Positions 46,359-54,467 of a stretch of 56,232 nucleotides of DNA are shown in pieces (the first letter of the stretch is position 1; the number at the start of each line of letters is the position of its first letter). Under the pieces are notes generated by a model. It made no database searches. It saw nothing but the letters and a program-made list of their open reading frames with translations, and was not told the origin of the DNA. The stretch is from the NCBI GenBank assembly GCA_002683575.1, contig NYTP01000125.1:1-56232 (forward strand), given 5' to 3'. A program made the translations under genes and the position numbers. Source of the stretch: Bermanella sp. GTDB lineage: Bacteria; Pseudomonadota; Gammaproteobacteria; Pseudomonadales; Oceanobacteraceae.

Positions 46359-49300
46359 CTAATGTTGCACGGGGCTAATAACAAACAATAGGTCACCTTG
46401 GTTTACTTGTTGTCCCTCGGCATTGTGGATGCGTACAACTTTATACTGAGCGTCTGGATCATAAAGTGTATTGCTTTGGGTGTTGAATGATTTTAAATTC
46501 AACGGACTAAACATCTTCATGGCTTCCATTAAGCACAGGGTTTTCGTCACTGAGATCGTATCACCTTCTTTTACATAAGGTGGTTCAGTTGGTGAGGGTG
46601 CACTGTAAAAAATGGAGCTAGCCGGTGCCAATACTTTTAATTCGTTAGAGCCCTCAATGCGAAGATTATCAAGCGTCATGCTTTGCTTGCTATCACCTGC
46701 ACTGGTTGCGATATCTTTTATCAATGCGTCTTTATCAATACGGCTTAAGAAGTTCGGTAAGTAACCCGTATCGTAATCGCCATTTACAAATACATCGTCA
46801 CTCAGAATGCGTTTTAATAGCGGGATGTTTGTGCTGACACCTTGAATAATGGTGTTATCCAAGTATTTTTTCAATTTGTTGATCGTATCGTTACGGTCTT
46901 TGCCGTAACAGATGACCTGTACCACCATGCTGTCATAGAAAGGGGTAACTTCTTTTCCGCTCTCTATGGATTTTAATAAGTGCACATTTTTATCTTCTGG
47001 TAATTCAAAGCGCGTAATTTTTCCAGCATTGGGAATGAACTGTATCTCATCCCCCTGAAGGGTCGCTTTCTCTGCATTAATACGCAATTCCATAGCATAG
47101 CCTTTCGGCTTGTACTTGATGTCAGCAATGCTTTCGCCGCTTGCGATTTTAAACTGTAAACCCATGATATCAGTATTTGTAACCAGTTCCGTTACCGGAT
47201 GTTCAACCTGCAGGCGTGTGTTCATTTCCATAAAATAGACATCATTAGCATCTAGGTTATAAATAAACTCAACGGTACCTGCGCCAAAATAATCAACCGC
47301 ATCGGCTAATTTTTCGGCGTAATCATAAACCTTGTCTTCTAGGTTTTTAGGCAGCATGGTTGAACCAGATTCTTCAATGATTTTTTGGTTGTTACGTTGC
47401 ACCGAGCAGTCACGTAAACCGAGTACGCGGGTGTTACCATGACTATCACGTAAAATTTGCACTTCGATATGACGTAATGAGGTGACAAATTTTTCTAAAT
47501 ACACATCACCATTACCAAACGCGCTGCGCGCTTCGGTTGAGATTTGATGAAAAAGCTCATGAATAGTGGATGGCTCATGAACCACTTGAATGCCTTTACC
47601 ACCGCCACCATGTACGGCTTTAAGTAAGACAGGGTAACCAATTTCATCGGCCACCTTTGCTGCCATCGCTGATGTGGTCACGATGCCATGAGAGCCAGGT
47701 ACTACAGGCACCCCTGAGCTGATAGCAGTATTGATTGCATTGGACTTATTGCCCATGGTTTCCATGGAGGACACGCTAGGACCTATGAAGTTAATATCAT
47801 GATTGCCACAAAAAGCGGCAAACTGAGAACTTTCTGATAAGAAGCCAATACCTGGGTGCAGTGAATCGACTTTTTCAAGTTCGGCAATACGAATTACACT
47901 TTGTGCATTTAGATAGCTTTCATCTGGTGTATTACCACCGATACAAACAAGACGACCTTTTGCATTTAAATTATCGGCAGCGGTGCTGTTCATGTCTGGG
48001 TCGGATTGGACGAGTACTACATCAATTTTATTCTCTTGCGCTTTGCGAACCAATTTTTCAGCGGTACAGCCACGAGCATGGATCAGAACTTTTTTAACTG
48101 GGCGGAAAAGCTTTTCTTTATTTTGATTGGTGACCTCTTTTGCTTTTACCTTGCCTGGGGTCACATAACCTCTAAGAATACGCGCCAGTACTTCATCAAC
48201 GGTTTTACGTGCAATTGGAATAGCTGGGTCTATTTCCCGCAGCTGGCTATCCAGTTCTTCCACAAAAGGGTGTTTAACTAAGTCGGCCATTGACTGACGA
48301 TTGAGTGATAAATAGTTGGATAGGGTGGCTGTTGATGGTAAATAAGAAGGCACAACAATTTGGCCAGCAAAGGGCATGTTTGTACCAGAGAAGTAGAATG
48401 TTTGGACCATAGGGTGCGTAACGAAGCTGGCTTGTGCACCGCCCGTGCAATCGCCATAGCCGAATACCACAATCGGTAAATCATTGTCACGAACAAAGCG
48501 TGTAATGCGATCGTTTACCACAGACATAGAGAATAATGCGGACGCACCTTCTTTGGTTTGCATGCCCCCTGAACTGACAAAGCAAATAACGGGGTAGTTG
48601 TGGCGGGCGCATTCAACTAATAACTTACAAAACTTCTCAGCACTGGCCATATCAAATGCGCCGGCTTGAAAATCGAGATTTGATATAAGTGTCCCTACAC
48701 GACGACTTTCATCGCCAATTTGTATGGTGCCAAAACCAGTGATTACGCCACAAGGTGTTATCTCTTCTGTAAGCGCTTTTTCAATGGCGCTTCTGAATCC
48801 TGGAAACTGTACTGGATCAGCGGTCATAAGATGGTCATTGATTTCTTCGAAATCATTAAAGAATCGATCCACAAATGCTTGGCTTGGGGTGGTGCGTTGT
48901 TTTTTTACATCGTCTAATACATCTTGAATCAGTAAATCAAAGTACGCGATGGTAAGACGATTCCAAAAATCTTTTTTACGCCCAATGCTATAAGGATTTA
49001 TTCGACCATTATAGTTGCCACCATCTTTTGACTCATAAAACTCGGCAAGCAATTTATCAAAGAAAAATGTAACGATAACAAAAAGCGTATCGCTTAAGCG
49101 TGGGAAGCTGTGCTTTTTCCACTCTTCTACTTGAATTAAAAACGCGCCACGTTGGCTGGACTCTACAAAGTACTTAAACCAGTTGGCGAACTCTTCCTTG
49201 TGGTTTTCAGCAATGCTTAAGTTGTTTGTATATTCCAAACCTTGGTTTAATAAATTATTCACCGCTGTATAAGATAGGCTATGGGTTTCCTTTGCTTCTT

Positions 49301-51227
49301 TCGCAATGGTGCCTAAATTACGTATGACGTAATCATAAAGTGCGCCGAACATGATTAAATTTTGACTAATACTGATGAATTCAGTGCGTAAGTCATCCAG
49401 TAATATAGCGTCTAGCACGGTCGCATCTTTACTGGATTTGACGCTGGACTCTTCTGACTTAATACGAATATAAGGGGCCAGGGCATCTTCTAAAACACGT
49501 CGATTTGCTTCTAGTGAACCACTTGCCACGCTATTGAGTAATTGTTGCGTAGTTTGGCTGAGGTTAATGCCTTCAATGACTTCTTTTGGCATTTTTTCAG
49601 ATTTAATGATGCAGTTTAATGCTTCTGTTAAACCTGTAATCAATGCTTCATTTGAGCCTTCTTTCGTAAAGTTTGCTAATAATGCTTGAGTATCATAATT
49701 CAGGCTTTTCTGAATAAATTTAGCCAAATCATGATCATTGGTTTTAATGAAATGAATAATAGCCTTGGTATCAACTAAATCATCTTGTGTTAGTAGGAAT
49801 CGACTTTGTTGAAAGTCTTCTAAGTAGTCAATGAGCTCTGCAAAATTAACGACTGCATCGGACTTCCAGCGATTGAATAAATACAAGCCAAGAGAGAAAC
49901 TGAAATCCTGCTTTGCTTTGATGTAATTATCTTCAGGTTCACCGAAAAATAACTTAGAAATTGAGCCGCGATCTTCATCTCGACTTTCTAACTTTTGAAT
50001 GTAGTTTTTCCAAAGTTTATTTAGGTCTTCGTCGTAACGAATCTTATCTGGGGCTTGAAGCCATTTTTGGAATTTTTTACGTTTTTCACCTTCTAAGCGC
50101 TCATTTAATTTGCCGGTTGGCACTTCTACTTCTGCTAGTCGACTGTAATGGCCTGTAGTGGTGGAAGAAATACGTTTTCTGAGTGTCAGGTATCGCATAT
50201 AACGATATGTCATACGAAATAGGTTGTGATGTTCAGACGGGCTCGAGGCAAGGTTTAAGCTGGAACCTTTTTCTAATGCTACTAGCTTATTTGATGGGTT
50301 GAGATAGCGCTCAACACTGCGCAAGTAATGATCCATTAAATAGGGGTTTTCACGAGCGAAATTCTCAGCGCCGGTTTCAATGCTTAGAATACTGGTGGTG
50401 ATCGCATCAGATAGGTTTTGCAGCTGATCAATTCGATCGCCCGGAGCGTAGTCGATGATGCCGTCGATAACATTGCGTAATTGCAGCTCATAAGCGGAGA
50501 CACCCACATATTTTGCGCATTCTTGCCATGATAGGTTGTATTTACGTGCAATACTGGCAAGGCCCTGTGGTTGGATGGTATTAAAAATACCATCACGTAC
50601 CGACAATAATATATTGGTTGAAGCAAGTGGAATAGCACCACCGGAATAACCCGCTCCCAGAATAATGCCTACAGTCGGGACATCTATATTGGACATTTCG
50701 GAAATTAAGCGTGAAATGCTGTGGGCTTGATTGTCTAGGTTGGCTTGTTCACTGGCATCGGCTCCTGGGGTGTCGATTAAGGTCACAACAGGGGTGATGT
50801 GTCTGGCAAATTGTCGTAACGCCTTTACTGCCTGTTGGTGGTGTTCGGGTAACCATGCACCGTTGCGCTCAGAGCGGTTTTGCCCGATGAATCCTACACG
50901 GCGAAACTGGTTGTTAAAATCCAGTTCAACTTCAGCTACATAAAGTGGGCCAAATTCTTGTTCGGTAATAAAGCGAGTGGTTAATTTGTGTACCAGTTGC
51001 TTTGCATTTAAACGTTGACTGGATTCGCTGGGGGAGACCACTTCTTGAATGTAACCATCGATATCCAACGCTTTTAATTGGGCACTTTTATCATCAACTT
51101 GTTCTTGGCTTAATAAGCCTTGGACCATGCCTTCTGCATGACTGTCCTTCTGCGAAGGAAACAGTGAGAAATCTTGACTGAGTTTTTCTGCTATTTGAAA
51201 TAGCTGATCGGTATCAAACTGCGACAT
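46359..51227 (-). CDS. Giant single-chain biotin-dependent acyl-CoA carboxylase
   Basis: The 1622-residue protein carries all functions of a biotin carboxylase system. Order: CT-alpha/AccA-like about 71-326 (TLIDTPGADASEQANLDNQA, ILGAGYSGGAIPLA); helical unassigned region about 336-810; CT-beta/AccD-like about 811-1026 (GTLISNLDFQAGAFDMASAE, ICFVSSGGMQTKEGASAL, GDCTGGAQASF); biotin carboxylase about 1044-1496 (HPGIGFLSES, KAVHGGGGKGIQVV, EMNTRLQVEHPVTE); BCCP about 1526-1622 with EAMKM and biotinyl Lys1571. The CT halves are in reverse order relative to usual beta-alpha. Acyl substrate is unknown. A GTG start at 51239 is possible; neither start has a clear ribosome-binding site. It appears monocistronic, between a terminator and a 205-bp divergent gap. 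Confidence 0.9.
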   Translation of the reverse strand: MSQFDTDQLFQIAEKLSQDFSLFPSQKDSHAEGMVQGLLSQEQVDDKSAQLKALDIDGYIQEVVSPSESSQRLNAKQLVHKLTTRFITEQEFGPLYVAEVELDFNNQFRRVGFIGQNRSERNGAWLPEHHQQAVKALRQFARHITPVVTLIDTPGADASEQANLDNQAHSISRLISEMSNIDVPTVGIILGAGYSGGAIPLASTNILLSVRDGIFNTIQPQGLASIARKYNLSWQECAKYVGVSAYELQLRNVIDGIIDYAPGDRIDQLQNLSDAITTSILSIETGAENFARENPYLMDHYLRSVERYLNPSNKLVALEKGSSLNLASSPSEHHNLFRMTYRYMRYLTLRKRISSTTTGHYSRLAEVEVPTGKLNERLEGEKRKKFQKWLQAPDKIRYDEDLNKLWKNYIQKLESRDEDRGSISKLFFGEPEDNYIKAKQDFSFSLGLYLFNRWKSDAVVNFAELIDYLEDFQQSRFLLTQDDLVDTKAIIHFIKTNDHDLAKFIQKSLNYDTQALLANFTKEGSNEALITGLTEALNCIIKSEKMPKEVIEGINLSQTTQQLLNSVASGSLEANRRVLEDALAPYIRIKSEESSVKSSKDATVLDAILLDDLRTEFISISQNLIMFGALYDYVIRNLGTIAKEAKETHSLSYTAVNNLLNQGLEYTNNLSIAENHKEEFANWFKYFVESSQRGAFLIQVEEWKKHSFPRLSDTLFVIVTFFFDKLLAEFYESKDGGNYNGRINPYSIGRKKDFWNRLTIAYFDLLIQDVLDDVKKQRTTPSQAFVDRFFNDFEEINDHLMTADPVQFPGFRSAIEKALTEEITPCGVITGFGTIQIGDESRRVGTLISNLDFQAGAFDMASAEKFCKLLVECARHNYPVICFVSSGGMQTKEGASALFSMSVVNDRITRFVRDNDLPIVVFGYGDCTGGAQASFVTHPMVQTFYFSGTNMPFAGQIVVPSYLPSTATLSNYLSLNRQSMADLVKHPFVEELDSQLREIDPAIPIARKTVDEVLARILRGYVTPGKVKAKEVTNQNKEKLFRPVKKVLIHARGCTAEKLVRKAQENKIDVVLVQSDPDMNSTAADNLNAKGRLVCIGGNTPDESYLNAQSVIRIAELEKVDSLHPGIGFLSESSQFAAFCGNHDINFIGPSVSSMETMGNKSNAINTAISSGVPVVPGSHGIVTTSAMAAKVADEIGYPVLLKAVHGGGGKGIQVVHEPSTIHELFHQISTEARSAFGNGDVYLEKFVTSLRHIEVQILRDSHGNTRVLGLRDCSVQRNNQKIIEESGSTMLPKNLEDKVYDYAEKLADAVDYFGAGTVEFIYNLDANDVYFMEMNTRLQVEHPVTELVTNTDIMGLQFKIASGESIADIKYKPKGYAMELRINAEKATLQGDEIQFIPNAGKITRFELPEDKNVHLLKSIESGKEVTPFYDSMVVQVICYGKDRNDTINKLKKYLDNTIIQGVSTNIPLLKRILSDDVFVNGDYDTGYLPNFLSRIDKDALIKDIATSAGDSKQSMTLDNLRIEGSNELKVLAPASSIFYSAPSPTEPPYVKEGDTISVTKTLCLMEAMKMFSPLNLKSFNTQSNTLYDPDAQYKVVRIHNAEGQQVNQGDLLFVISPVQH

Positions 51228-51432
51228 AACTATTGGCACTTTTAATTATTAATGGTGAAGCTGGCTGGTGTTCAAAGCCAATATGCACTGCTTTATAACA
51301 GACATTTTATAAGAATACAGCCATCATACGGGGATTCTTGAATTGCGTCATATAATCTGTTTTATCTAACCAAAACCGAGGTTTATCCTGTGTCTTATCA
51401 GGTCTATAATAGCCGAAAATAGAGGGCCCCCT

Positions 51433-51785: not shown

Positions 51786-52448
51786 TTATGGGTTCTTTGG
51801 AAACAGCAGGTTGAAAATAATTTGTGCGTTATTGCTTTCGACGTTGATCGAATTATCACCTGATGAGTAAATGCCACTCTGTATCTCGCCCCCTGTGTTT
51901 GGAATAATGAATTGGAACCCAGAGTTCGTAATTGTTTGTTGTCCTTGAAGCGGGTCACCAGAGGTTTGTCCGGCAAACGTGCTTAAATATTGCCCCATGT
52001 GTTCAGGGGTGATTTGTGTATCAGACGGCAGGCCAAGCCCCTCACGAACAATATTTTGTGCATAGGCTTGTTGTGCTTGGGCGGCTGGGTTCAGCTGCGG
52101 AGCAATAAATACCTGGGTGCTATTGCTTTGCTCAAGCTGACGCAGTTGTTGTTGTGCCTGAAGCTGGGTGGAGTTTTGATCAAATTGCGTTTGTTGTGTG
52201 GCTTGCTGGTCAAGCTCACGAACGGTGTCCACTTCACTGACAACCGGTTGGCCTGCGCTCACCTTATATTGTGCATTTGGCTTGAGTGCCGGTTTTGGAG
52301 ATATGTTCTTTTGTTTCACCATGATAGAGCCATCAAGGATATAGGCTTCTGTCATTTCTGTGTTGCTCAGTTCTTCAACTTCTGCCTGAGCTTGAGTGCC
52401 GCTAAATAATACCATCGAGCCAATTAGGAATAGATGCAAACGTTTCAT
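51786..52448 (-). CDS. Uncharacterised exported Gln-rich protein
   Basis: The 220-residue protein has a signal peptide (MKRLHLFLIGSMVLFSGTQAQA). The central part is Gln-rich and low-complexity (QQATQQTQFDQNSTQLQAQQ). The C-terminal 60 residues look like a short beta domain (FQFIIPNTGGEIQSGIYSSG, then NINVES-like strands and IIFNLLFP). I do not recognise it. A start at ATG 52448 is set by AAGGAG just upstream; the frame opens at 52463. Envelope location is inferred from the signal. It stands alone, between convergent and co-directional genes with no operon partner. Confidence 0.75.
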   Translation of the reverse strand: MKRLHLFLIGSMVLFSGTQAQAEVEELSNTEMTEAYILDGSIMVKQKNISPKPALKPNAQYKVSAGQPVVSEVDTVRELDQQATQQTQFDQNSTQLQAQQQLRQLEQSNSTQVFIAPQLNPAAQAQQAYAQNIVREGLGLPSDTQITPEHMGQYLSTFAGQTSGDPLQGQQTITNSGFQFIIPNTGGEIQSGIYSSGDNSINVESNNAQIIFNLLFPKNP

Positions 52449-52539
52449 ATTAAGCTCCTTCATTTATACCTATACCTTAGCTTACTGGCCCGACTTTACT
52501 AGAGTATCTTAGAATACTTCCAGTGTGTTGTAGGGCGAA

Positions 52540-53430
52540 TCAATCTAAAAACCGAGTGTTTAGCCCATTATAAGCATCGATACGGCGATCACGGAAATAT
52601 GGCCAGATACGTCTGATTTGTTCTGTTTTATCAAGGTCAATGTCAGCTTCAACCAAGCATGCGTCCTGGTGATCAGCGAGCGCTAAAAACTCCCCTTGTT
52701 GACCGGTAATAAACGAGTGCCCCCAGAATTGAATGCCACTACTTTGGCCACTAGGGTCTGCTTCATGGCCAACGCGGTTAATGGCAATAACGGGTAAGTT
52801 ATTGGCGATGCTGTGCCCACGTTGAACACCTATCCACGCGTCTTTTTGGCGCGTTTGTTCATCTATAGTGTCAGCTTTATCCCAGCCAATAGCGGTGGGG
52901 TATATGAGTATCTCAGCTCCCTTGAGGGCCATTATACGGGCACCTTCAGGGTACCACTGGTCCCAACATACCATGACACCAAGCTTGCCAATACTGGTTT
53001 GTATTGGCTCAAAGCCATCTGGGTCTCCTGGGGTGAAATAATATTTTTCGTAAAACCCTGGATCATCTGGAATGTGCATTTTGCGGTAAAACCCAGCAAG
53101 GCTTCCGTCGCGATCAAAAACCAAAGCGGTATTGTGATAGATGCCTGGTGCTCTGCGTTCAAAAATTGAACCCACAATTACCGCATTAGCCTGTTTTGCT
53201 TGTTCACTTAAAAACGCAGCGGTTGGGCCATCTAAAGGCTCAGCCAAATCAAACTTATTTGGCTCTTGAGTTTGGCAAAAATAATCCGTGGCATGCAGCT
53301 CTTGAAGTACGATTAGGTCAGCCTTTTTTGCGGACGCTTGCTCTATTAGTTCTTGAGTCGTTTTTAATGATACGGTTTTTTCAGTGGAGCACGCTTGCTG
53401 AATGCCAATAACATGAACAGAGTGTGACAT
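52540..53430 (-). CDS. aguB: N-carbamoylputrescine amidase
   Basis: The 296-residue nitrilase-family enzyme converts N-carbamoylputrescine to putrescine, CO2 and ammonia. The catalytic triad is Glu in IVLQELHATDYFC, Lys in GFYRKMHIPDDPGF and Cys in GVMVCWDQWYPEGARI. The frame extends upstream to 53514 inside aguA, but ATG 53430 overlaps the aguA stop by 1 base (TAATG) and begins the domain (MSHSVHVIGIQQACS), so it is chosen. It follows aguA in one operon. Confidence 0.96.
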   Translation of the reverse strand: MSHSVHVIGIQQACSTEKTVSLKTTQELIEQASAKKADLIVLQELHATDYFCQTQEPNKFDLAEPLDGPTAAFLSEQAKQANAVIVGSIFERRAPGIYHNTALVFDRDGSLAGFYRKMHIPDDPGFYEKYYFTPGDPDGFEPIQTSIGKLGVMVCWDQWYPEGARIMALKGAEILIYPTAIGWDKADTIDEQTRQKDAWIGVQRGHSIANNLPVIAINRVGHEADPSGQSSGIQFWGHSFITGQQGEFLALADHQDACLVEADIDLDKTEQIRRIWPYFRDRRIDAYNGLNTRFLD

Positions 53431-54467
53431 TAATTTACTTCCAGTTGTTCTGCCGTGGGTATTTGCATAGTGAGGCAGTGAAGACTGCCATACTGACGAA
53501 TAACGGTGGCGCAATTGATTGGTATGATCTTATGGTTAGGCAGTGCGCGAGTTAAAACTTTAATGGCCTGCGCATCTTGTTCAACACCGTATACCGGCAG
53601 CAGTAAAGCCCCATTAATAAATAGAAAATTGGCATAGGTCGCTGGTAGGCGCTGGTTATCCTGTTTTTCGTAAATAGCGCTGGGCCATGGGAGCTCTACT
53701 AAAGTAAAGGGCTGATTCAGGGTGTTGGTCAGTTGAGACAGTTCAGCTTTCATGGCTTGCAGCTCATCAAAGTGTTCGTCTTGTTTATCGTCGCATCCTT
53801 GAAAGATGATTTGATTATTGGGCGCAAATCGAGCCAGTGTGTCGATATGTGCATCCGTGTCATCCCCTAAAAGATCACCATGCCTAAGCCATAATATTTT
53901 TTCACTGCCCAGTGCATCCTTTAAGTAGGTTTCTATTTGGGCTTGATTCAACGATGCGTTTCGATTGGTGTTTAATAAACACTTTCGAGTGGTGAGTAGG
54001 CATCCTTGACCATCACTCTCTATGCTGCCGCCTTCTAAAATGAAATTATGATTTTCATAGGTGTGGGCGGTATAGGCGTGCTGTTGAAATAATTGATCGC
54101 TGATCTGGTTGTCGTAAGTAGCATCAAATTTACCGCCCCAGCCATTAAAAATATAATCTTCGATGACGAGTTTTTTATTTTCAAAAACGCCAATAGGGCC
54201 ATGGTCTCGCGCCCAGGTATCATCGCTTTTACAAATATAAAAGCGGCACTGAAAAGGTTGCTTGGTAAGTTTTGGGGAAAGTTCGTTTGCGGTTTGCTCA
54301 TCGGGAATACTAAGAATGACATCTTCGTATTGCGTGATGATATTGATCATCTCGATGAATAAAGACTGAATGTCAGGCAGTATCCAGTTCCAGTCGGTCT
54401 CTTTGTGGGGCCAGGTGAGCTGAATGGCTTGTTGCGGATGCCATTCAGCAGGGAAATATCGAGTCAT
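53430..54467 (-). CDS. aguA: Agmatine deiminase
   Basis: The 345-residue enzyme converts agmatine to N-carbamoylputrescine, the step before AguB. The N-terminus has FPAEWHPQQAIQLTWPHKETDW, read in two parts, then DDTWARDHGPIG, NFILEGGSIESDGQG, GDDTDAHIDTLARF and the catalytic Cys in QYGSLHCLTMQIP. All guanidino-modifying-enzyme residues are visible. It is first in the aguAB pair, giving a putrescine route from arginine-derived agmatine. Confidence 0.97.
   Translation of the reverse strand: MTRYFPAEWHPQQAIQLTWPHKETDWNWILPDIQSLFIEMINIITQYEDVILSIPDEQTANELSPKLTKQPFQCRFYICKSDDTWARDHGPIGVFENKKLVIEDYIFNGWGGKFDATYDNQISDQLFQQHAYTAHTYENHNFILEGGSIESDGQGCLLTTRKCLLNTNRNASLNQAQIETYLKDALGSEKILWLRHGDLLGDDTDAHIDTLARFAPNNQIIFQGCDDKQDEHFDELQAMKAELSQLTNTLNQPFTLVELPWPSAIYEKQDNQRLPATYANFLFINGALLLPVYGVEQDAQAIKVLTRALPNHKIIPINCATVIRQYGSLHCLTMQIPTAEQLEVN

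Follow-up and report, generated by a model that had tools for sequence, protein, structure and literature searches.

The window analysed here, 56,232 nucleotides of a Bermanella sp. contig, encodes on its minus strand a protein of 1622 residues that is very probably a single-chain acetyl-CoA carboxylase (ACC) of the AccS (AccADCB) family. The assignment follows from the domain order, the conserved key residues, full-length homology with a solved holoenzyme, and the lack of split accA and accD genes over cut-off in most of the carrier genomes searched. The gene and its parts are as follows.

46359..51227, minus strand: accS/accADCB gene, 1622 aa, matching 9kkm_A at E=0; alternative GTG start at 51239
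50388..50867, minus strand: AccA-like (alpha) carboxyltransferase (CT) half, core residues 121-280 (Pfam ACCA), with Gly-Gly 196-197
49803..50360, minus strand: helical linker, first shared part, residues ~290-475, helices in the models and alignable to 9kkm
49428..49802, minus strand: extra helical segment, residues 476-600, fast evolving, with a 10-residue counterpart in 9kkm
48828..49427, minus strand: helical linker, second shared part, residues 601-800, placed by the 9kkm alignment and VIA-align
48138..48827, minus strand: AccD-like (beta) CT half, residues ~801-1030, TIGR00515 at 792-937, with Gly-Gly 929-930
46743..48098, minus strand: biotin carboxylase (BC) domain, residues 1044-1495; the 9KKM counterpart of Glu1342 is the mutated Glu1238
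46362..46652, minus strand: biotin carboxyl carrier (BCCP) domain, residues ~1526-1622, with predicted biotinyl Lys1571 within EAMKM

A single stop-free frame spans 46359-51227 on the minus strand; a plus-strand frame over the same stretch was rejected as full of stops. With the ATG start at 51227 the product has 1622 residues, and with the GTG start given in the list of open reading frames (46359-51239) it has 1626. The alignments of five relatives (L027, L028, L036, L044, and L046) begin at residue 1 of the ATG-start version. In GTDB genomes, a scan turned up 182 stretches that encode a relative, possibly with other biotin enzymes among them. The family analysis rests on the best 80 of these, whose best-segment identity to the window protein is 50-90%. 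In 67 of the 80, a frame of 1500 aa or more runs without interruption and aligns along the chain, which excludes a chance origin; an assembly artefact was likewise rejected, because relatives align along the whole chain.

Pfam places ACCA at 121-280, the N, ATP, and C domains of BC at 1044-1490, and Biotin_lipoyl at 1533-1576. In NCBIfam, the CT halves match AccA and AccD profiles and the BC part matches AccC profiles; accD (TIGR00515) matches residues 792-937 at 44 bits, far below its cut-off of 317. Conservation was assessed in an alignment of 73 rows, consisting of the window protein (P0001), 67 of the best 80 loci, and five further loci (L022-L026). The remaining 13 of these best loci dropped out because their frames were shorter than 1500 aa, contained X, or were not among the frames found. 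Both Gly-Gly pairs, 196-197 in the A half and 929-930 in the D half, are identical in all 73 sequences, as are the BC residues E1334, N1336, R1338, E1342, and R1382. The biotin lysine is conserved in 71 of the 73 rows; the other two have gaps and are probably L077 and L079, where the match reaches the contig end. We assign oxyanion-hole and catalytic roles to the CT and BC residues on the assumption that they act as in the E. coli and S. aureus enzymes. By eye, the BCCP appears to keep what we take to be an ACC-type thumb. The zinc ribbon, presumably a feature of heteromeric AccD, was not seen in the window protein: the accD profile match begins at position 71, and no cysteine occurs between 539 and 826.

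These data bear out several claims of the first-pass annotation. Translation and the Pfam and NCBIfam profiles confirm one 1622-residue frame with AccA-like, unassigned helical, AccD-like, BC, and BCCP parts in that order, and the profile positions agree with its reading of an alpha CT half ahead of the beta half in a single-chain biotin-dependent carboxylase. Its view that every part has intact motifs is upheld by the conservation of the BC, CT, and biotinylation residues across the alignment. It also placed EAMKM at the C-terminus; the motif is present, at 1568-1572, but lies about 50 residues before the end.

Which solved enzyme does the protein resemble? A sequence search of the PDB returned 9kkm_A, "Acetyl-CoA carboxylase multifunctional enzyme AccADCB", 1517 residues, with E=0 and 1841 bits; the alignment covers residues 6-475 and 601-1621 of the window protein, linker included. 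Entry 9KKM, released 2025-11-19, is titled as a cryo-EM holoenzyme dimer of the E1238A mutant from Shewanella oneidensis, and 9w4a has the same sequence. Glu1238 of 9KKM aligns with Glu1342, in the BC motif QVEHP. The window protein and the S. oneidensis AccS/AccADCB (SO_0840; 9KKM, 9W4A) share the order A, helical linker, D, BC, BCCP, and the same key residues save Glu1342, which is an engineered Ala in 9KKM. The window protein is 105 residues longer, through the extra linker segment 476-600. No open-access paper on 9KKM or 9W4A was found in a literature search that included S. oneidensis ACC cryo-EM from 2025 on.

Published genetics support AccS as the acetyl-CoA carboxylase of S. oneidensis, as far as the available sections of PMC11602165 and PMC4793157 go. 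In the former, the gene is named accS and the domain order of the S. oneidensis protein is described as unlike that of eukaryotic ACC. The same sections report that accS is activated by the LysR-type regulator AccR, that low AccS leads to slow growth, and that an accR mutant, which has little AccS, regains growth with E. coli accA, accD, and accBC together; AccS is seen as a biotinylated band of ~170 kDa. The accessible part of PMC4793157 sets E. coli AccA, AccB, AccC, and AccD beside AccS (SO_0840, 1517 aa), and states that no AccABCD homologues are found in S. oneidensis, where AccS takes their place, apart from an extra AccB in Table 2. An excerpt of PMC9803151 names accADCB in a Berkiella gene list, where it carries no description.

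How does AccS relate to other carboxylases? The CT halves and BC of the window protein match the profiles of the heteromeric bacterial enzyme (E. coli AccA, AccD, AccC, and AccB), and the alpha half of its model aligns with S. aureus AccA (2f9i_C) at Z 26.8 over 240 residues and 2.2 A. However, heteromeric ACC consists of four chains and has no linker, whereas the window protein is one chain of 1622 residues. 4RCN, which we take to be a single-chain long-chain acyl-CoA carboxylase, is also one bacterial chain with BC, BCCP, and CT, presumably in a different order and with a fused beta-alpha CT; 4rcn_B aligns with the alpha half of the model at Z 18.1 over 202 residues and 3.4 A. In eukaryotic ACC, the beta half precedes the alpha half. 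The eukaryotic order is BC, BCCP, CT, whereas in the window protein the CT halves stand before BC and BCCP. What the two share is a single chain with a large non-catalytic central region, as described for the eukaryotic enzyme in the available part of PMC4833862.

Two single-chain AlphaFold2 models were made from an input alignment of 46 sequences (the window protein and 45 of the 67 relatives, chosen below 88% identity), one of residues 290-812 (mean pLDDT 78.8) and one of residues 1-1035 (79.9). In both, ~290-790 is mostly helices. VIA-align matches 284 residues of the linker model to 9kkm with Z 28.9, 2.6 A, and 45% identity; the runner-up chain reaches Z 4.5. The 1-1035 model matches 9kkm at Z 50.6 (870 residues, 2.9 A, 51% identity); the 50 matches listed for it are filled by the A half, and AccD-only chains are not among them. 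Foldseek also ranks 9kkm first for the linker model (E 2.2e-17), and the TM of 0.49 and rmsd of 14.4 over 509 columns imply that the parts of the model are either placed differently from those of the solved chain or poorly modelled. No eukaryotic ACC was noticed as a relative of the linker among the 50 matches listed per program (Foldseek, VIA-align). Judged by these models, the helical insert is a known part, the central region of the solved enzyme 9KKM, except for residues 476-600. The first-pass annotation was thus right that a large helical region lies between the alpha and beta halves, and mistaken in calling it unknown.

The reaction scheme is established for biotin-dependent carboxylases. 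The BC domain, with ATP and bicarbonate, would add a carboxyl group to the biotin carried by Lys1571 in the C-terminal BCCP, which would swing to the carboxyltransferase formed by the AccA-like and AccD-like parts; there the carboxyl group would pass to acetyl-CoA, giving malonyl-CoA for fatty acid synthesis. Between the C-terminus of the A half and the N-terminus of the D half, the helical linker would act as both structural spacer and scaffold, connecting the two and positioning CT relative to BC. We infer for this organism the reaction itself, the dimer state, the scaffold role of the linker, and any sharing of work with the split enzyme. The first-pass annotation doubted that the enzyme is specific for acetyl-CoA, but this is the likely substrate, judging by the AccA and AccD profile matches, the ACC-type look of the thumb, and the many carriers without split accA and accD.

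Is the single chain the only such enzyme in the cells that carry it? In 17 of the 22 carrier genomes searched, neither accA nor accD scores over its family cut-off, which is not quite the same as absence, as the control genomes pass in 7 of 14 cases for accA and 6 of 14 for accD. Completeness figures exist for six of the 22; five of these six are at least 90% complete, and four of the five are without accA and accD. Sub-cut-off accA matches in the 17 genomes do not exceed 84.5 bits, and every genome has its best one within the accS frame. For accD, the best sub-cut-off match lies outside the accS frame in G374 (56 bits) and G375 (67 bits). The latter (G375:C9:11375-11908) belongs to a 370-residue frame; neither accA nor accD is over cut-off in that genome. 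Eight of the 22 carriers have accC over cut-off, three of them borderline (626.3-627.4 bits, the cut-off being 626.5) and perhaps subunits of other carboxylases. BCCP is over cut-off in six carriers, of which one, G374, is without accA and accD and in this resembles S. oneidensis with its spare AccB, as given in the accessible part of PMC4793157. In an even class sample, 6 of 369 genomes, among them that of the window, are carriers (match E 1e-150 or better), and accA is over cut-off in 348 of the 369. It is missing over cut-off from 4 of the 6 carriers versus 17 of the 363 others (Fisher p = 1.1e-4, ignoring kinship; three of the four accA-less carriers are of one genus). The lack of split accA and accD over cut-off in the 17 genomes speaks for a housekeeping role of the single chain there, and it is probably their only such enzyme.

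In the other five carriers, both accA and accD are over cut-off. The window's genome is among these, and the question of whether it also has split genes is answered by all four, accA, accD, accB, and accC, scoring over family cut-offs. This differs from S. oneidensis, which the available text of PMC4793157 reports to be without AccABCD homologues apart from the spare AccB. Thus, in this genome the single chain could act on a different acyl-CoA or under other conditions. Carried further, this becomes the reading that the split enzyme is the housekeeping ACC in the window's genome and the single chain works in a side pathway or on a different acyl-CoA. The coexistence of both forms is consistent with it, as is one genome that retains split accA and accD, where accS (L104, 6848-15432) is followed directly by a short-chain dehydrogenase and a thiolase gene, with a further dehydrogenase upstream and three short-chain dehydrogenase genes in all; this cluster may be a side-pathway operon. 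However, the window AccS has the same conserved key residues as carriers without another accA or accD, and the neighbours that it keeps in L036, L044, and L046 give no pointer to a side pathway. We consider this reading unlikely, and an acetyl-CoA carboxylase of the AccS family is preferred.

The window gene is flanked by a 4HBT-type thioesterase gene, with a tail-specific protease beyond, and by the gene for a 225-residue protein (51786-52463, minus strand) that has no Pfam match and is present in 5 of 85 loci. At 52540-54467, also on the minus strand, a carbon-nitrogen hydrolase gene adjoins a PAD_porph gene; we take the two to be an agmatine deiminase pair of a putrescine pathway. Ten window neighbours were searched for by tblastn (E 1e-8) in 85 loci (L022-L106), one stretch each, and the counts are lower bounds, as locus lengths vary. 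Each recurs in at least 1 to 10 of the 85, mostly in near relatives, and neither an operon common to the family nor a gene common to all 85 loci was found among the ten. Several recur by accS in L027, L036, L044, and L046; the tail-specific protease, DUF599, and FtsX-like genes are those kept in the last three. YaaA and Lipoprotein_16 are also near accS in loci titled Thalassolituus and Oleispira, and in Thalassolituus maritimus (L083) a beta-ketoacyl synthase gene lies directly upstream. According to the available part of PMC11602165, accR is divergent from accS in Shewanella, and the LysR-type gene divergent from accS in Motilimonas (L090) matches that report; neither of the adjacent window genes tested is LysR-like.

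What is the extra segment? The 9kkm alignment jumps from 475 to 601 in the window protein and from 485 to 496 in the solved chain, which has 10 residues there. At this place 57 of the 73 aligned sequences have 104-130 residues and 16 have fewer than 15, and neither set is a single clade in a midpoint-rooted FastTree. The scatter of long and short forms over the tree suggests that the segment was gained or lost more than once. Median identity to the window protein is 22% at 476-600 (56 of 72 relatives counted), against 45% in the flanking linker, 63-65% in AccA, AccD, and BC, and 54% at the BCCP end. The segment may be a distinct regulatory or assembly module, so that the long form works unlike the solved short form. 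Its presence in 57 sequences and absence from 16, across clades, is consistent with this, but 22% identity is what would be expected of an unconstrained spacer, no obvious motif stood out in the segment, and the module reading is possible rather than probable. The only solved sequence found (9KKM, 9W4A) is of the short form. Still more doubtful is the combined proposal that a long form beside a complete split enzyme marks a functionally separate AccS in which the segment controls assembly or activity; if true, the cell would run two acetyl-CoA carboxylases under different control.

The proposal of the first-pass annotation, a distinct new architecture with an unrecognised function, can claim that the linker (290-790) or the whole chain is covered by no Pfam family (9 hits) and by none of the best 25 of 41 NCBIfam hits, but it is refuted as to the architecture and vanishingly improbable as to the function, because the order is that of a family with a name and a characterised representative, the S. 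oneidensis AccS, already solved and genetically studied (9KKM, and PMC11602165 and PMC4793157 in the sections available).

AccS is more widely spread than the range given in the accessible text of PMC11602165. Among the best 80 relatives, eight are titled outside Gammaproteobacteria: by their record titles, L098, L100, L103, and L104 are Desulfuromonadales or Desulfuromonadaceae, L094 (on a 1.9 Mb contig) Lentisphaeria, L105 Kiritimatiellae, L092 Verrucomicrobia, and L099 Planctomycetota. All eight are metagenome-derived by title, and mis-binning is possible, least so for L094.

The architecture is thus that of a family already named and solved. What is new here is modest: a long variant with a fast-evolving segment at 476-600, carriers whose titles lie outside Gammaproteobacteria, and redundancy with the split enzyme in the window's genome. 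AccS combines in a single chain the parts needed for the committed step of fatty acid synthesis, and seems to replace the split carboxyltransferase genes in 17 of the 22 carriers searched. Carriers with both forms, together with the long form, are useful for asking how the fused and the split enzyme come to take each other's place.
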